Assembly (NCBI GenBank): GCA_018694835.1
Contig: JABHOG010000009.1
Span: forward strand, 1-39,125
Length of the DNA stretch: 39,125 nt
DNA from: Planctomycetota bacterium
Lineage (GTDB): Bacteria; Planctomycetota; UBA8108; UBA1146
Reading direction: 5' to 3'
The notes under the pieces were generated by a model. The model did no database searches and was not told the DNA's origin. It saw only the letters and a program-made list of their open reading frames with translations. Positions 14,189-20,890 of this stretch are shown piece by piece. The translations under genes were made by a program, and so were the position numbers. Position 1 is the stretch's first letter, and each line of letters starts with the position of its first letter.

Positions 14189-16690
14189 TCAGAAACAGGT
14201 GAGCGAATCCGCAGTCGGATCGGGACCGGGCGTGGGGAACGGCGGTGCAGGAGGTACACCTCCGCTGAAGAGGTAACCGAGTACGCTGATCGCATCGGCG
14301 ATATTGATATTCCCCGAATCGTTGGAGTCGACAGCGTCTGGACAGATCGGAGCGATTCCACTGACAAATAAGTAGTCGAGAGTTGTGATCACATCACCAA
14401 GATTGAGGATCTGATCTTGATTGGCATCTCCTCGGAGGAAGATCGGGGCCGTCGACCCCACATCCACCAAACAAGACGCTGGACCCGACTCGATTCCATC
14501 CCTCAATGCGAGCAAGACATACTGACGATTCCCCGCAACAGCACCGCTGTCGAGGAAGGAAACTCCTTGTCCCGGCTGGATCGTAAGCAGTGCCCCATCG
14601 CGATAGATCTCGATCTCGTCATAATCCAGATCTCCATTGACCCACGAGATCTGAACTCCACCGGGATCATCGACGCAGGTTAAATTGTTCACCGGAGAAG
14701 GAGGCGTAGAGACTGGAGAGTTGTCATAGATGCAGGTGGATGGAGTGCTCTCGAGGCCGCTTCGAATCGCCATGACGCTGTACTCCAACACAACCTGTGG
14801 AGCAAAGAGGTCGGTGTACTGGGTGACGGATCCAGACAGATTGGTGACAAAGACACCGTTCCTGACCACCTGAATCAGATCATAATCGGTGGCACCGAGA
14901 ATCCATGAAAGATTGACCCCGACCGGATCCGCGACACAGGTCAGCCCCGCCACCGGCGGCGGGGCCGTGACCACGGGAGAGTTGTCCACTTGGCACGACG
15001 AGGGGATACTCGTGAGAGCATCGCGAATCGCAACAACGCTGTAGTCGAGTAGAGACTGAGGAGCCTGAGGGTCAGTATAACTGGTCGCTCCGCCGGGGAG
15101 GTCGACCAGCAATGCACCATTGCGTGAGATCTGGATCTGGTCGTAATCCAGATTACCTAGCGTCCAGTTGAACTGGACTGATCCCGAATTGAGGACGCAG
15201 TCCAGAGCCTCAACCGGATCGGGGGGTGTCGATGGTCCTCCACCGAGAAGATCGATGACGAGGTTTTGATCCGAATTGACAAGCACCGCAGCGATGGTGA
15301 CGGGATTCAACCCGCTTCCTGGAAGCGGAGTGGCGGTCACATCATAGGTTCCGGCCACCTGGCGAAGTGCGAAGGCACCCAGCCCATCGGTGTCATTCCC
15401 GTGGACATAGATGGTCGCTCCGGTGGTGCTATCGGTGAGGGTAATTTCTACTTCCCCCACCGGTGTGACCCCTGCGAGGACGGTTCCCGTGATGGCGAAG
15501 CCATCGGGAACCACCACACTTCCCAGATCGACATTGCTCGAAACGTTGACCCCTTCGATCACCAGGGGAGCGGCACCACTCGAGAATTTCGGCCTGAAGG
15601 CGATGTCATAGGTATCGGGTACTACCTGGACGGAGAATGTCCCCGAAGAATTGGCGTTGTCATGGGCAGTAGGAATCTCTACTCCCGTAGCACTGATGTA
15701 AAAGTCCAGATCGGTCTCCGGAACCGACTGCCCCGAAGAGTTGAGCACCTCTCCAAAGACAGAGAAACCATCGGGTAAGGTCAGAACTCCCAGATTGGTG
15801 CCACCCACCGCAATCGAGATCGGCGTCAGGATCGACACCAGGGTAGAGCCCTGAGGAGGATCGATTTCCAGCTGGAAATCACCCGAGGGCGCCAACACAC
15901 TGAAGATTCCTGATCCATTGGTATTGTCTCCCGGGGTGAGGATCTTCTCTCCAGTGATGGGATCTCGGACATCGATGTCTCCCGCAACTACCGGAGAACC
16001 TCCCATATCGAGAACGGTTCCAGTCAACGTGTAACCATTTCGCAACACCACGTCACCCACGTCTACAATGGTAAATAACGCAAGATCGGGCAGCATGACT
16101 GGCACCAGCGCAATCGAACTACTGGCCGGGTCTGCAACGAATCGCACATCCCAGAATGCAGGGAGGACCTTGACCAGGAATTCTCCCGCGGCATCCGTTG
16201 TATCGCCGGAGAACGGAACGGCCTGACCGCTGAGCGGATTGAAGAAATCCAGGTCCACCAGTTCCAGCGGCTGCCCCAACTCGGTCACCACACGGCCGCC
16301 AACCATCCCAGCATCCGCCAGTTGGATGGCTCCGAGATTGGTGCTACCAGAAAGGGTAACTGTCTGGAGAGTTCGATCGAAGAATGGAACCGTTGCGGCC
16401 GCTTGAAATGTGATGTCGAAGAAACCGGAGGGCACGGACTGACAGATCGCCAGTGAGAAACTACCATCGGCCAGTGTGAAATCCTGGCTCAGGGCCATCG
16501 GTTGCCCGGTCGAGAGCTGGGTGATGTCGATATCGACCCCGCCGATTCCCTGCCCGTTGCTATCGACCACCACACCGGAGATCACCCAGGAAGAGGGTGT
16601 ACATTGAGCGGTGAGTTCCCCTGAGGATGGGGCCAAGCAGGCCAGTATCAGGCACACGCCCGATACAACTTTTCCGACATTATTGAACAC
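14189..16690 (-). CDS. Exported repeat protein: carboxypeptidase-regulatory-like repeats, Fn3-like repeats and dockerin
   Basis: The 833-residue product has a signal peptide (MFNNVGKVVSGVCLILACLAP). Five tandem beta-sandwich repeats of about 90 residues follow, of the carboxypeptidase-regulatory/Cna-B-like type. Each has a G-x-V...G...D-ID core, a conserved TG phrase, a D-x-x-G-x-F-x-V phrase and an LG-x-V/L...DGF end. Three Fn3-like repeats of about 78 residues come next, each with LTCV or LDCV, a SW/NW core, LDYDQIQI-like strands and a conserved late cysteine. A dockerin pair (RGDANQDQILNLGD and DSNDSGNINIADA) ends the protein. The GTG at 16688-16690 has GGAGGAG (16699-16705) 8 nt upstream. 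An upstream in-frame ATG at 16762 would add 24 residues before the signal peptide and is rejected. No catalytic motif is visible; a cell-surface structural or adhesive role is inferred. Confidence 0.82.
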   Translation of the reverse strand: MFNNVGKVVSGVCLILACLAPSSGELTAQCTPSSWVISGVVVDSNGQGIGGVDIDITQLSTGQPMALSQDFTLADGSFSLAICQSVPSGFFDITFQAAATVPFFDRTLQTVTLSGSTNLGAIQLADAGMVGGRVVTELGQPLELVDLDFFNPLSGQAVPFSGDTTDAAGEFLVKVLPAFWDVRFVADPASSSIALVPVMLPDLALFTIVDVGDVVLRNGYTLTGTVLDMGGSPVVAGDIDVRDPITGEKILTPGDNTNGSGIFSVLAPSGDFQLEIDPPQGSTLVSILTPISIAVGGTNLGVLTLPDGFSVFGEVLNSSGQSVPETDLDFYISATGVEIPTAHDNANSSGTFSVQVVPDTYDIAFRPKFSSGAAPLVIEGVNVSSNVDLGSVVVPDGFAITGTVLAGVTPVGEVEITLTDSTTGATIYVHGNDTDGLGAFALRQVAGTYDVTATPLPGSGLNPVTIAAVLVNSDQNLVIDLLGGGPSTPPDPVEALDCVLNSGSVQFNWTLGNLDYDQIQISRNGALLVDLPGGATSYTDPQAPQSLLDYSVVAIRDALTSIPSSCQVDNSPVVTAPPPVAGLTCVADPVGVNLSWILGATDYDLIQVVRNGVFVTNLSGSVTQYTDLFAPQVVLEYSVMAIRSGLESTPSTCIYDNSPVSTPPSPVNNLTCVDDPGGVQISWVNGDLDYDEIEIYRDGALLTIQPGQGVSFLDSGAVAGNRQYVLLALRDGIESGPASCLVDVGSTAPIFLRGDANQDQILNLGDVITTLDYLFVSGIAPICPDAVDSNDSGNINIADAISVLGYLFSGGVPPAPPFPTPGPDPTADSLTCF

Positions 16691-16744
16691 GAGAACGGCT
16701 CCTCCACGAATTCCTGACAATTCAACAGATTGCCCGGAAACCCA

Positions 16745-16773
16745 CTGAAACTTCACCCACATTCCTTACTATA
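16745..16773. promoter_or_regulatory. Candidate divergent promoter elements
   Basis: Between divergent genes, the + strand has CTGAAA (16745-16750), a 16-bp spacer and TACTAT (16767-16772), a poor sigma-70-like match that could drive the methyltransferase. On the - strand TATAGT (16768-16773) matches five of six -10 bases and could serve the repeat protein, but has no good -35. Confidence 0.2.
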
Positions 16774-17975: not shown

Positions 17976-18794
17976 TCACTGAACTCCCAGCAATTTCCGA
18001 ACGCGACTCACCTGGATTCGATCCTTCTCGGGGCAATTCAGTTCCCAACGTTGAAGAGTTTTACTCAGTCTCTCCTCCGGTTCGGGCACCCCATGATTCA
18101 AATATCTCAAGGCGCGCCAAGTTGCTGGATATTTCTCCAGCAAGGGCAGCCACTGCACGGCGACCACGCGAAGAAGATCTCGATCCTGCGGGTTCTGCTG
18201 AAGTTGACTCTGATGCTCCAGCCTCCACTTCTTGAAATGGATGCCCTTCTCCAGAGTACCCTTCTCGACCAGATCGTCGGCATACTGCTGTAGATGGGCA
18301 GCGTAGGAACTCCAGTTGGGATAGGGCGGATGGTCCTTCCAGCGCTTCGCCATCTGTCGCAGTGTGAAGATGCTCGCCGCTTCGCACGCGGCTTCCTCGA
18401 GCCAATGATGCGGATCGGGATCTTCATCGAACCCGCACAGGATATGACCCATCTCGTGCCCGAACTGATAGGCCATCTGGGCCCAGCGCCGACCTTGGGC
18501 AGCCAGCCGAAAGCGGATGGCACCGTCAGGCCCTCTCCGATGTAGAACGATCGGTCCACCGCTGGGCTCCACTCGTATCAGCGGAAGTTGTGGCGATCCT
18601 GCAGCCTGCCACAGCGGTTCAGCGGCGGAAAGCAACACCGCATGCACGTCGGCCAGGGTGGCATTCCCCCACCCTTCCTCGACCAGTTCGATGCGCAGGT
18701 CCGCCGCAACCACCGGTGACGCACTCCCGAGCAGCACCCAGAATAGAATCCCACAGGCGATCGATCGGGCGGCTGGAGTCGTCACAGTGATCAC
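17976..18794 (-). CDS. Exported zincin-like putative metallopeptidase
   Basis: The 272-residue product has a signal peptide (IACGILFWVLLGSASPVVAAD). It carries a zinc-metallopeptidase motif HEMGH (H113, E114, H117) in the helix MAYQFGHEMGHILCGF. The segment WLEEAACEAAS follows about 16 residues after the second histidine, where a gluzincin would supply its third ligand (E133, E134 or E138). I cannot assign a named family. Its GTG start overlaps the stop of the upstream peptide transporter by four bases (GTGA), so translation is probably coupled. This suggests, as inference, an extracytoplasmic peptidase working with peptide uptake. The residues around HEMGH favour a genuine peptidase, but a non-catalytic relative is possible. 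The opposite strand has an open frame at 17934-18293 that I regard as a shadow. Confidence 0.75.
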   Translation of the reverse strand: MITVTTPAARSIACGILFWVLLGSASPVVAADLRIELVEEGWGNATLADVHAVLLSAAEPLWQAAGSPQLPLIRVEPSGGPIVLHRRGPDGAIRFRLAAQGRRWAQMAYQFGHEMGHILCGFDEDPDPHHWLEEAACEAASIFTLRQMAKRWKDHPPYPNWSSYAAHLQQYADDLVEKGTLEKGIHFKKWRLEHQSQLQQNPQDRDLLRVVAVQWLPLLEKYPATWRALRYLNHGVPEPEERLSKTLQRWELNCPEKDRIQVSRVRKLLGVQ

Positions 18795-20890
18795 TCCGGC
18801 ATCTGTTTCATCTGTTTCTCCGGGGTTTGTTTCCCCGGTGGCGCATCTTCACCCTGGATGTAGTCCTTCGGCTTGTAGAAGTAGGCCACCCCCATGAAGA
18901 CGAACGCCGTGGCCAGCATCAATTGGGTGAAGAACCAGAAGTAGGGCGCACCCTGGAGAGTGGTCGCTCCCCCGACGTGAGCCAGCGCATCCCCCTTGAA
19001 GGGCTGGACAGCAATATTGGCGGCCACGATCGAGGTGCGAACGGGCAGAAAGTCCTCGACCGAAAGCGTGCCTGCTCCCTCGGAGCCACTCGCCTTCTCC
19101 AGTTCGATCTGGGCCTTACGCCGCTCGATCCAGGAGTACCTCGGGGTGGCATCTGCATCTGTGACACTCTGGCGCATGACCGCTTCCTCCTGAGCTGCCA
19201 CCGACAGGCTGGCGACCTCGACCCCGATCCAGGCATCGAAGGGGGTGTGCTGGAGACCATCAGGACCATCGCTGGAGATGACGAAGTTCTGGCGATTGAT
19301 CAACTGGTAGCGCAGTGGATTTTCCCAGGGGTCCTTCAAGGCGCCAACGATTCCCCCACCATCCGAAGTCAGTGGTAAACGATCATTCTGTTGCCAGTAC
19401 TGATCGATGAGACCCAGCCCCTGCTCCAGAATCGCCGTCTCTGCCAGCACCAGGCCACTCTTGCTGCCACTGTTGTTGAACTGCACCCGGATGTCATCGG
19501 CAGGGTCTTCGACCGAGAATCCCGGAAGAAGCAAGATGAAGCCCTCTCCCTCTCCCTGGGAGTAGGTCATGTGGGCTTTTTTGGCGAGTTTTATTCGCTC
19601 GGGTTCTGTCTTCAAATCCTTGACCTCAGCCGCCACTTCGACGGCTACTGCGATCGTATCGGGCACGACGATGTTGTGATTGACCGCCGCCGTGAAGTAG
19701 TTACCAAGAGAAACGCTCATCAGGAAGAGCGCCATGATCACCGACTTCATCCTCTTCGGCGCCTGGGTATAAGCAAACTCCAGTCCTGTGATGGAGACCA
19801 TCACCTCGGCCGCTGTGAGGATCGAGTAGGCGAGAATTTGCCAGCCGATGGAGGGGGTTTCTCCGGCATCGATGAGCCCCTGGGCGATCGCCACCATGGC
19901 AAAGCCTCCGACCATCACGAATAACCCGAGAGAGATCTTTCTCACCGGTGTCAGTTTCCACACCCGGTCGATGGCGGGGTAGACCAGAAACTGAAAGGTC
20001 GGGATCAAGATCAGGATCATCACCGGATTGACCGCCTGGACCTGCGATGCCAGCCACGTCACCCCGAGCCAGTTGCGATCCATATCCTGTGCCTGGAGCA
20101 CCCAGGAGGATCCGGTCTGATCGAACAGTGCCCAGAACACGGCGATGAAGATGAAGATGACACTGACCTTGAGCATCGACTGGATGCCGACTGCGCTGAA
20201 GGTCTCACTGAACCAGGCTTTTCCCCCCGGAGGGATGTGGACGAAGACATTTCGGCCCATCCAGAAAGCGAAGGTGGCGATCGCCATCAAGATTCCTGGA
20301 ATCCCGAAGGCCAGGTGTGGGCCGTACCACTCCAGCAGCCAGGGGGTCAGCAAGGTCGACAGGAAGGCACCGGTATTGATGGAGAAGTAGAACCAACCAA
20401 ATGCTTTGGTCAGGAGGTAGGAATTCTTGATTCCAAATTGATCTCCGACGTGGGCAGAAACACAGGGCTTGATTCCGCCGGAGCCAAGGGAGATCAGCAG
20501 CAGCCCGATCCAAAGGGTCTGGAAAGGGTCAAGAGAAGCATGAATGCCCATCAGAGCGAGCACGCCATGCCCTGCACAATAGACCATGCTCAGAGCCATG
20601 ATGGTCAGGTACTTGCCGAGGAAGATGTCTGCGATCAGCGCCCCGAAGATGGGGGTGAAGTAGACCGCAGTGGTAAACAAGTGGTAATTCTCGACCGCTG
20701 TGGCTCTCGCCATCGGATCGCCGCCGCTGGCCCCTGGCATCAAGAAAAGGAACTGGGTCATGAAGACGACCAGGATCCCCTTCATGCCGTAAAAACTGAA
20801 TCGTTCAGCCGCTTCATTGCCGATGATGTATGGGATCCCCTTGGGAATCTCAGTGGTCAGGGGGGGCGTGGAGAGATGACTCGACGACAT
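18791..20890 (-). CDS. POT/PTR2 family proton-dependent peptide transporter with large periplasmic insert
   Basis: The 699-residue inner-membrane protein has the POT family signatures. These are the N-terminal GNEAAERFSFYGMKGIL (the ExxER region), GGIKPCVSAHVGDQFG, FYFSINTGAFLSTLLTP, and EFAYTQAPKRMKSVIMALFL in the late helices. It should import di- or tripeptides with protons. Typical bacterial members have about 450-520 residues; this one has an extra soluble region at about 410-650, between the penultimate and last helices, where family topology predicts the periplasm. Part of that insert (LKDPWENPLRYQL...FVISSDGPDG) resembles the C-terminal domain of type II secretion pseudopilin G. The last helix is FWFFTQLMLATAFVFMGVAYF. 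The start is ATG 20890. The stop overlaps the GTG of the zincin-like gene, forming an operon. Confidence 0.92.
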   Translation of the reverse strand: MSSSHLSTPPLTTEIPKGIPYIIGNEAAERFSFYGMKGILVVFMTQFLFLMPGASGGDPMARATAVENYHLFTTAVYFTPIFGALIADIFLGKYLTIMALSMVYCAGHGVLALMGIHASLDPFQTLWIGLLLISLGSGGIKPCVSAHVGDQFGIKNSYLLTKAFGWFYFSINTGAFLSTLLTPWLLEWYGPHLAFGIPGILMAIATFAFWMGRNVFVHIPPGGKAWFSETFSAVGIQSMLKVSVIFIFIAVFWALFDQTGSSWVLQAQDMDRNWLGVTWLASQVQAVNPVMILILIPTFQFLVYPAIDRVWKLTPVRKISLGLFVMVGGFAMVAIAQGLIDAGETPSIGWQILAYSILTAAEVMVSITGLEFAYTQAPKRMKSVIMALFLMSVSLGNYFTAAVNHNIVVPDTIAVAVEVAAEVKDLKTEPERIKLAKKAHMTYSQGEGEGFILLLPGFSVEDPADDIRVQFNNSGSKSGLVLAETAILEQGLGLIDQYWQQNDRLPLTSDGGGIVGALKDPWENPLRYQLINRQNFVISSDGPDGLQHTPFDAWIGVEVASLSVAAQEEAVMRQSVTDADATPRYSWIERRKAQIELEKASGSEGAGTLSVEDFLPVRTSIVAANIAVQPFKGDALAHVGGATTLQGAPYFWFFTQLMLATAFVFMGVAYFYKPKDYIQGEDAPPGKQTPEKQMKQMPE

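Follow-up and report, generated by a model that had tools for sequence, protein, structure and literature searches.

A planctomycete POT-family peptide transporter with a predicted periplasmic insert resembling the pseudopilin GspG

The window, meaning the whole stretch of 39,125 nucleotides analyzed here from a Planctomycetota bacterium (contig JABHOG010000009.1), encodes a peptide transporter of the POT family which, on combined sequence and model evidence, almost certainly carries a folded insert in the periplasm. The C-terminal part of this insert is very probably homologous to GspG, as judged from profile comparisons and its predicted fold. The best explanation of the findings as a whole is a POT with a single GspG-type insertion that would act as a docking module, a reading to which a probability of about 0.45 is assigned. 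The features of the transporter are as follows.

18791..20890, minus strand: gene for a POT (PTR2) proton-coupled oligopeptide transporter (open reading frame, Pfam, PDB relatives, model)
19670..19756, minus strand: membrane helix 11, residues 379-407 (AlphaFold2 model)
18950..19669, minus strand: predicted periplasmic insert between helices 11 and 12, residues 408-647, 240 residues (model and loop survey)
19448..19657, minus strand: N-terminal subdomain of the insert, helix-helix-strands, residues 412-481 (model topology and half-versus-half profiles)
19214..19438, minus strand: GspG pseudopilin-like subdomain, residues 485-559, with a long helix, a short helix and three strands
19307..19333, minus strand: DPWENPLRY motif, residues 520-528 (alignment)
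19235..19267, minus strand: GPDGLQHTPFD, a putative Ca2+-loop motif, residues 542-552 (alignment)
18950..19201, minus strand: helix and linker at the C-terminal end of the insert, residues 564-647; YxWxExR and VGG..TLxGA are conserved
18878..18949, minus strand: membrane helix 12, residues 648-671 (AlphaFold2 model)

The transporter gene is an intact open reading frame for 699 amino acids. Its product was matched by Pfam PTR2 in two stretches (6.5e-80; 269 bits against a cut-off of 27), and stretches of TIGR00926 and TIGR00924 also matched. The nearest solved structures by sequence were PepTSo and 6ei3, followed by PepT2 and PepT1. An AlphaFold2 model of the whole protein, built on a shallow alignment of 22 homologues, had a pLDDT of 79.6, a pTM of 0.79 and 12 membrane helices. 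The modelled core superposed best on PepTSo, and the top fold matches in the PDB were PepTSo, 6ei3 and PepT2. Coupling in POT proteins depends on the ExxER motif on helix 1, a Lys on helix 4 and a Glu on helix 10. The coupling residues E26, E29 and R30 (the ExxER of helix 1), K141, E362 and E371 were identical across the insert-bearing sequences, being kept in every row that covers them (21 or 22 of 22). The cytoplasmic HA/HB region of PepTSo is missing from the window protein (query 224-232 against chain 210-291), and eukaryotic POT proteins are likewise not known to have it. By sequence, the protein would be an intact H+/di- and tripeptide symporter of the POT family. PepTSo, 6ei3, DtpA and PepTSt share its family and its coupling motifs, with about 35% identity to PepTSo and 6ei3 in structural alignment. 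However, these four have no large periplasmic domain, whereas the window POT has its insert of 240 residues.

The insert was placed at residues 408-647 because helix 11 ends at residue 407 and helix 12 begins at residue 648 in the model. A first-pass annotation, made from the letters of the DNA, had described a POT of 699 residues with about 240 extra residues between its last two helices, located at 18935-19675. The open reading frame, Pfam and the AlphaFold2 model all agree with this description, and the model-based boundaries (18950-19669) match to within a few codons. Both the N- and the C-terminus of POT proteins are cytoplasmic, as established for MFS transporters; loop 11-12 should therefore be periplasmic. 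The annotation had expected the same location, and the topology of the model, with 12 helices and the insert between helices 11 and 12, is in keeping with it. Extra membrane helices, which the annotation had named as evidence against its proposal, were also considered. A Kyte-Doolittle scan along the insert for a hydrophobic segment found none, the maximum 19-residue mean of 1.12 lying below the hydropathy of a membrane helix, and the 12 helices of the model include none in the insert.

The insert was also modelled alone, on a shallow alignment of 13 sequences. The mean pLDDT was 75.5, and blocks of ten residues reached about 90 in the GspG-like part. The model opens with helix-helix-strands, continues as helix-short helix-three strands and ends in a helical tail. 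The best Foldseek match in the PDB was Vibrio cholerae EpsG (4lw9; probability 0.99, rmsd 3.2 over 84 columns, E 0.095), and the pilins 4noa, 5jw8 and 5g2f appeared lower in the list. The first-pass annotation had suggested such a prediction and fold search, and the outcome was a folded domain with EpsG first rather than an unstructured linker or a structure with no match to GspG. The sole Pfam family seen in the inserts was T2SSG, which stayed under its cut-off (5 of 13 members, best 0.023); its single-sequence score was 13.5 against a cut-off of 21 bits, and scores were again below the cut-off in the distant inserts. A profile of the insert had a single match among PDB sequences, 3g20 (E 1.3), which is labelled 'Type II secretion protein' and which we take to be a GspG. 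The fold assignment therefore rests on several agreeing lines, since T2SSG is below its cut-off and the Foldseek E of 0.095 is non-significant alone. For example, the profile of the C-terminal half scored 49.2 (probability 95.7) against a reference profile of 30 planctomycete GspG-type sequences, and the maximum in 100 column shuffles was 18.9. A profile of diverse inserts, run over 392 genomes, recovered the 22 insert-bearing POTs. Its other matches were made mainly through positions of the C-terminal half, and they include genes with prepilin signals that T2SSG matches as well.

The likeness to GspG extends to motifs and has clear limits. The C-terminal subdomain has the same helix, short helix and three strands as GspG (EpsG 4lw9, 3g20 and the GspG of the same genome at L118), and both share DPWGNP..Y and the GxDG...T.D loop. 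By contrast, the hydrophobic N-terminal helix and the GF(T/S)LxE prepilin-peptidase site of GspG are missing from the insert and present in the genome's GspG. The genome's GspG gene is found in a type II secretion (T2SS) operon, whereas the POT gene sits between a histidine kinase gene and an HExxH gene, and the insert, unlike GspG, is flanked on both sides by membrane helices of a transporter. The annotation had pointed to the motif LKDPWENPLRYQL ... FVISSDGPDG as resembling the end of GspG. This motif is present in the insert and conserved among relatives; GxDx4TxxD and the DPWG-like motif are each kept in 21 of the 22 inserts, and the profile score lies above the shuffles. The likeness applies to about 75-84 residues in the C-terminal part, and the claim does not extend to the rest of the insert.

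The 22 inserts share the pattern LP...G..L...DPWGxPLxY..(L/I)..xFxIxSxGxD....TxxD, whose conserved positions presumably correspond to the Ca2+ ligands and core of GspG. In the numbering of the A4 alignment, L98, P99, Y121, S133, G135, D137 and D145 are invariant or nearly so. GxDx4TxxD occurs in 21 of the 22 inserts, as does the DPWG-like motif, and the G, D, T and D of the putative Ca2+ loop are invariant among 13 close relatives. The insert would probably bind Ca2+ through the GxDx4TxxD loop.

The remaining parts of the insert are less readily assigned to GspG. A direct homology of the N-terminal half to GspG was rejected at the sensitivity used, as 4 of 100 shuffles scored as high. When the profiles of the two halves were compared with each other, the score was 26.3 against 15.8 for the best of 100 shuffles, and several relatives have a GxDGxxxTxDD motif of their own in the N-terminal half. 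These two observations point to an old tandem duplication within the insert, and they are suggestive of the first 70 or so residues being a decayed, diverged second GspG-like copy. The last 85 or so residues are linker and helix.

The survey of insert position among planctomycete POTs that the first-pass annotation had proposed was carried out on 73 unique related POTs from sampled genomes and MAG assemblies, and 22 of them have the insert in loop 11-12. This loop measured 195-242 residues in those 22 and 11-25 residues in all others covering it. Thirteen of the long loops (209-242 residues) belong to POTs of the window's family and nine (195-224 residues) to three other planctomycete families; the group with a short loop includes POTs of Nitrospirota, Verrucomicrobiota and Pseudomonadota. 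One contig scan was made for the insert outside Planctomycetota, and the Nitrospirota, Verrucomicrobiota and Pseudomonadota relatives were without it. A tblastn search of the insert against plasmids gave no match. In the open-access literature no POT with such a domain was found, nor was any periplasmic domain of a planctomycete POT.

A quick tree of 71 relatives, made from the core with the insert columns omitted and with SH-aLRT support only, required two changes for the loop 11-12 insert against 18 expected under shuffled labels. The most likely history behind these two changes is a single gain and a single loss across four planctomycete families. The distribution in the survey together with the tree argues for an old, single and maintained acquisition, independent of PepT1 and PepT2, and the GspG-like insert thus looks like a domain gained once and kept in the planctomycete POT lineage. 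A gain independent of PepT1 and PepT2 had been proposed in the annotation, and the different loop, the different fold and the one origin among planctomycete POTs speak for it.

Inserts were also seen in other loops. Loop 9-10, the mammalian site, usually has 7-12 residues (7 in the window POT) and has 52-218 residues in seven POTs, with five changes on the tree. By sequence, such inserts appear to have been gained repeatedly among planctomycete POTs. One of the seven, a POT in genome G064 of the same class (L121 1367-3352, minus strand), has 218 residues in loop 9-10. This insert scores as a tandem bacterial Ig (Big_9 3.2e-15, two stretches), in the mammalian loop and of the mammalian fold class, and it comes from a single genome; a second Ig-bearing POT of this kind was not found in the two genomes searched. 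The planctomycete POTs of L119, L120, L131, L124, L122 and L134 have unrelated loop 9-10 inserts of 52-200 residues, with helical-looking repeats in L119, L120 and L131 and an unassigned stretch of 200 residues in L124. Near loop 7-8, the more distant planctomycete POTs of L123 and L126-L129 are longer by about 100 residues, a figure less carefully measured. Loops 7-8, 9-10 and 11-12, the three insertion sites, are all periplasmic and in the C-terminal bundle.

The closest known parallel is found in mammals. PepT1 and PepT2 (SLC15A1/A2) likewise bear a large folded domain on a related and intact core, in one of the extracytoplasmic loops of the C-terminal bundle. The loops are different, 11-12 in the window POT against 9-10 in PepT1 and PepT2, as are the folds, GspG-like alpha/beta against two Ig-like lobes (PMC4597091). 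The window insert resembles the PepT1/PepT2 domain in spirit but is unrelated to it. The 2015 paper on that domain described it as large, extracellular, of then unknown function and restricted to mammalian, not bacterial, POT homologues (PMC4597091). A bacterial POT domain of another fold in another loop would open the role of the PepT extracellular domain to comparative tests, and a POT such as L121, whose mammalian loop holds bacterial Ig domains in tandem, would make the same question approachable in bacterial proteins.

The reading preferred here is that one ancestor in the planctomycete lineage inserted the globular domain of a GspG-type protein into loop 11-12 of a POT, and that the first subdomain probably arose by duplication and then decayed. 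The insert would serve as an accessory module for docking, away from the translocation path, like the extracellular domain of PepT1 and PepT2. It would anchor a partner from the envelope at the transporter's mouth, where peptides from periplasmic proteolysis could then be imported on the spot. This docking logic has already been proposed elsewhere: trypsin binds to the PepT1/2 domain, whose deletion causes no appreciable loss of transport (PMC4597091). In planctomycetes, proteins and dextran are taken up into an enlarged periplasm (PMC5394234), a setting where docking at a transporter would pay. By analogy with these systems a docking role for the insert is a real possibility, at somewhat less than an even chance.

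Other explanations were weighed against docking. The weak single-sequence family scores would fit a linker, unstructured or unrelated, with DPW...GPDG in it by coincidence, but this chance resemblance is largely refuted and extremely improbable, as the fold search, the shuffle-controlled profile-profile score, the family scans and the genome-wide profile matches all agree and the core of the insert model has a pLDDT of about 90. It is also very unlikely that the domain mimics GspG in order to contact the pseudopilus, GspL/GspF or the secretin and bring the POT to a T2SS secretion site. The insert does resemble GspG, and the L118 operon of the same genome has GspE-, GspF-, GspG- and GspH-like genes with further prepilins (E, F and H by eye). 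However, the helix and peptidase site absent from the insert are those used for pseudopilin assembly and platform contact, and GspG-like domains are also found in unrelated proteins (L117, L050-L054). Their presence in unrelated proteins suggests that the fold is a general module here.

Two further explanations accept the domain and differ on what it does. It could lie over the mouth as a Ca2+-sensing or mechanical gate that alters the movement of helices 11 and 12 or the access of peptides, regulating transport directly. The Ca2+-loop motif ranks with the most strongly conserved stretches of the insert (21 of 22), and the two helices that the insert joins belong to the moving C-terminal bundle. 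Nevertheless such a gate seems unlikely, as the GxDx4TxxD loop serves folding and stability in true GspG and the core coupling residues of the POT show no compensating change. The extracellular domains of PepT1/2 are also dispensable for transport (PMC4597091). The probability is similarly low that the domain landed once in a permissive loop, folds by itself and is tolerated as a passenger with no specific role. Several extracytoplasmic loops of the POT C-terminal bundle have accepted unrelated inserts, and one loss is inferred on the tree; on the other hand, the insert is kept in four planctomycete families. Its invariant and near-invariant residues persist even though identity to the window's insert falls to only about 23-39% in the most distant ones, which counts against a passenger, since a passenger should decay.

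Under the docking reading, the likeliest partner in the window's family would be the product of the next gene, whose start overlaps the POT stop codon.

17976..18794, minus strand: exported HExxH protein, putative zincin peptidase, with HEMGH at residues 113-117 and downstream E/C/E

The GTG start of this gene overlaps the stop codon of the POT gene (GTGA). H113, E114, H117, E134 and E138 of its product are invariant in 12 homologues, and its N-terminus, read by eye, resembles a signal peptide. A search for its peptidase family gave no Pfam match above the cut-off and no PDB match; from its sequence it is a putative metallopeptidase of no named family. In each of the 12 complete loci from the window's family, the gene lies directly 3' of the POT gene, with overlapping or abutting start and stop codons. 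The gene upstream of the POT encodes a PAS histidine kinase that also has a receiver domain, and within the family the genes around the POT keep their order as a block. Because the whole block is conserved, the linkage of the POT and HExxH genes is weaker evidence than it appears. The first-pass annotation had proposed substrate capture or peptidase docking for the insert, and this linkage is circumstantial evidence for the docking. The HExxH gene was not found at the checked insert-bearing POT loci of other families; as it was seen only in the window's family, the idea of a single peptidase partner shared by every insert-bearing POT was rejected. That the HExxH protein is the docking partner of the insert is doubtful. 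A broader proposal is likewise doubtful: planctomycete POTs would have repeatedly evolved mammalian-style extracytoplasmic domains, and the GspG-like one would dock a co-translated metallopeptidase as a digest-and-import unit that parallels the recruitment of trypsin by PepT1 and PepT2.

In three loci of family f29 with an insert-bearing POT, a different gene lies downstream (L167 6548-7447, L171 6650-7519 and L175 5282-6193). Its product is exported and membrane-anchored, contains FRGQPV.L.GHILQ... and is distinct from the HExxH protein.

The globular domain of GspG also emerges as a mobile module used outside pili. The non-pilin planctomycete proteins with a GspG-like domain (L050-L054, L117) have it as a terminal fusion, whereas it is an internal insertion in the window POT. 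The L117 gene (1115-3793 in reverse-strand coordinates, contig C45 of the window's own genome) encodes an exported protein of 893 amino acids that looks PHP/CehA-like by eye and bears a GspG-like (T2SSG) domain at its C-terminus; throughout the window's family there are frames of comparable size that carry the domain. L050-L054 and L057 are small DUF4190-like proteins with two transmembrane segments and one GspG-like domain, or two in L050. Elsewhere in the window, 14189-16762 (minus strand) encodes an exported repeat protein of 857 amino acids with dockerin-like repeats at its end, and a large exported protein resembling it occupies the equivalent place in the other loci of the window's family.
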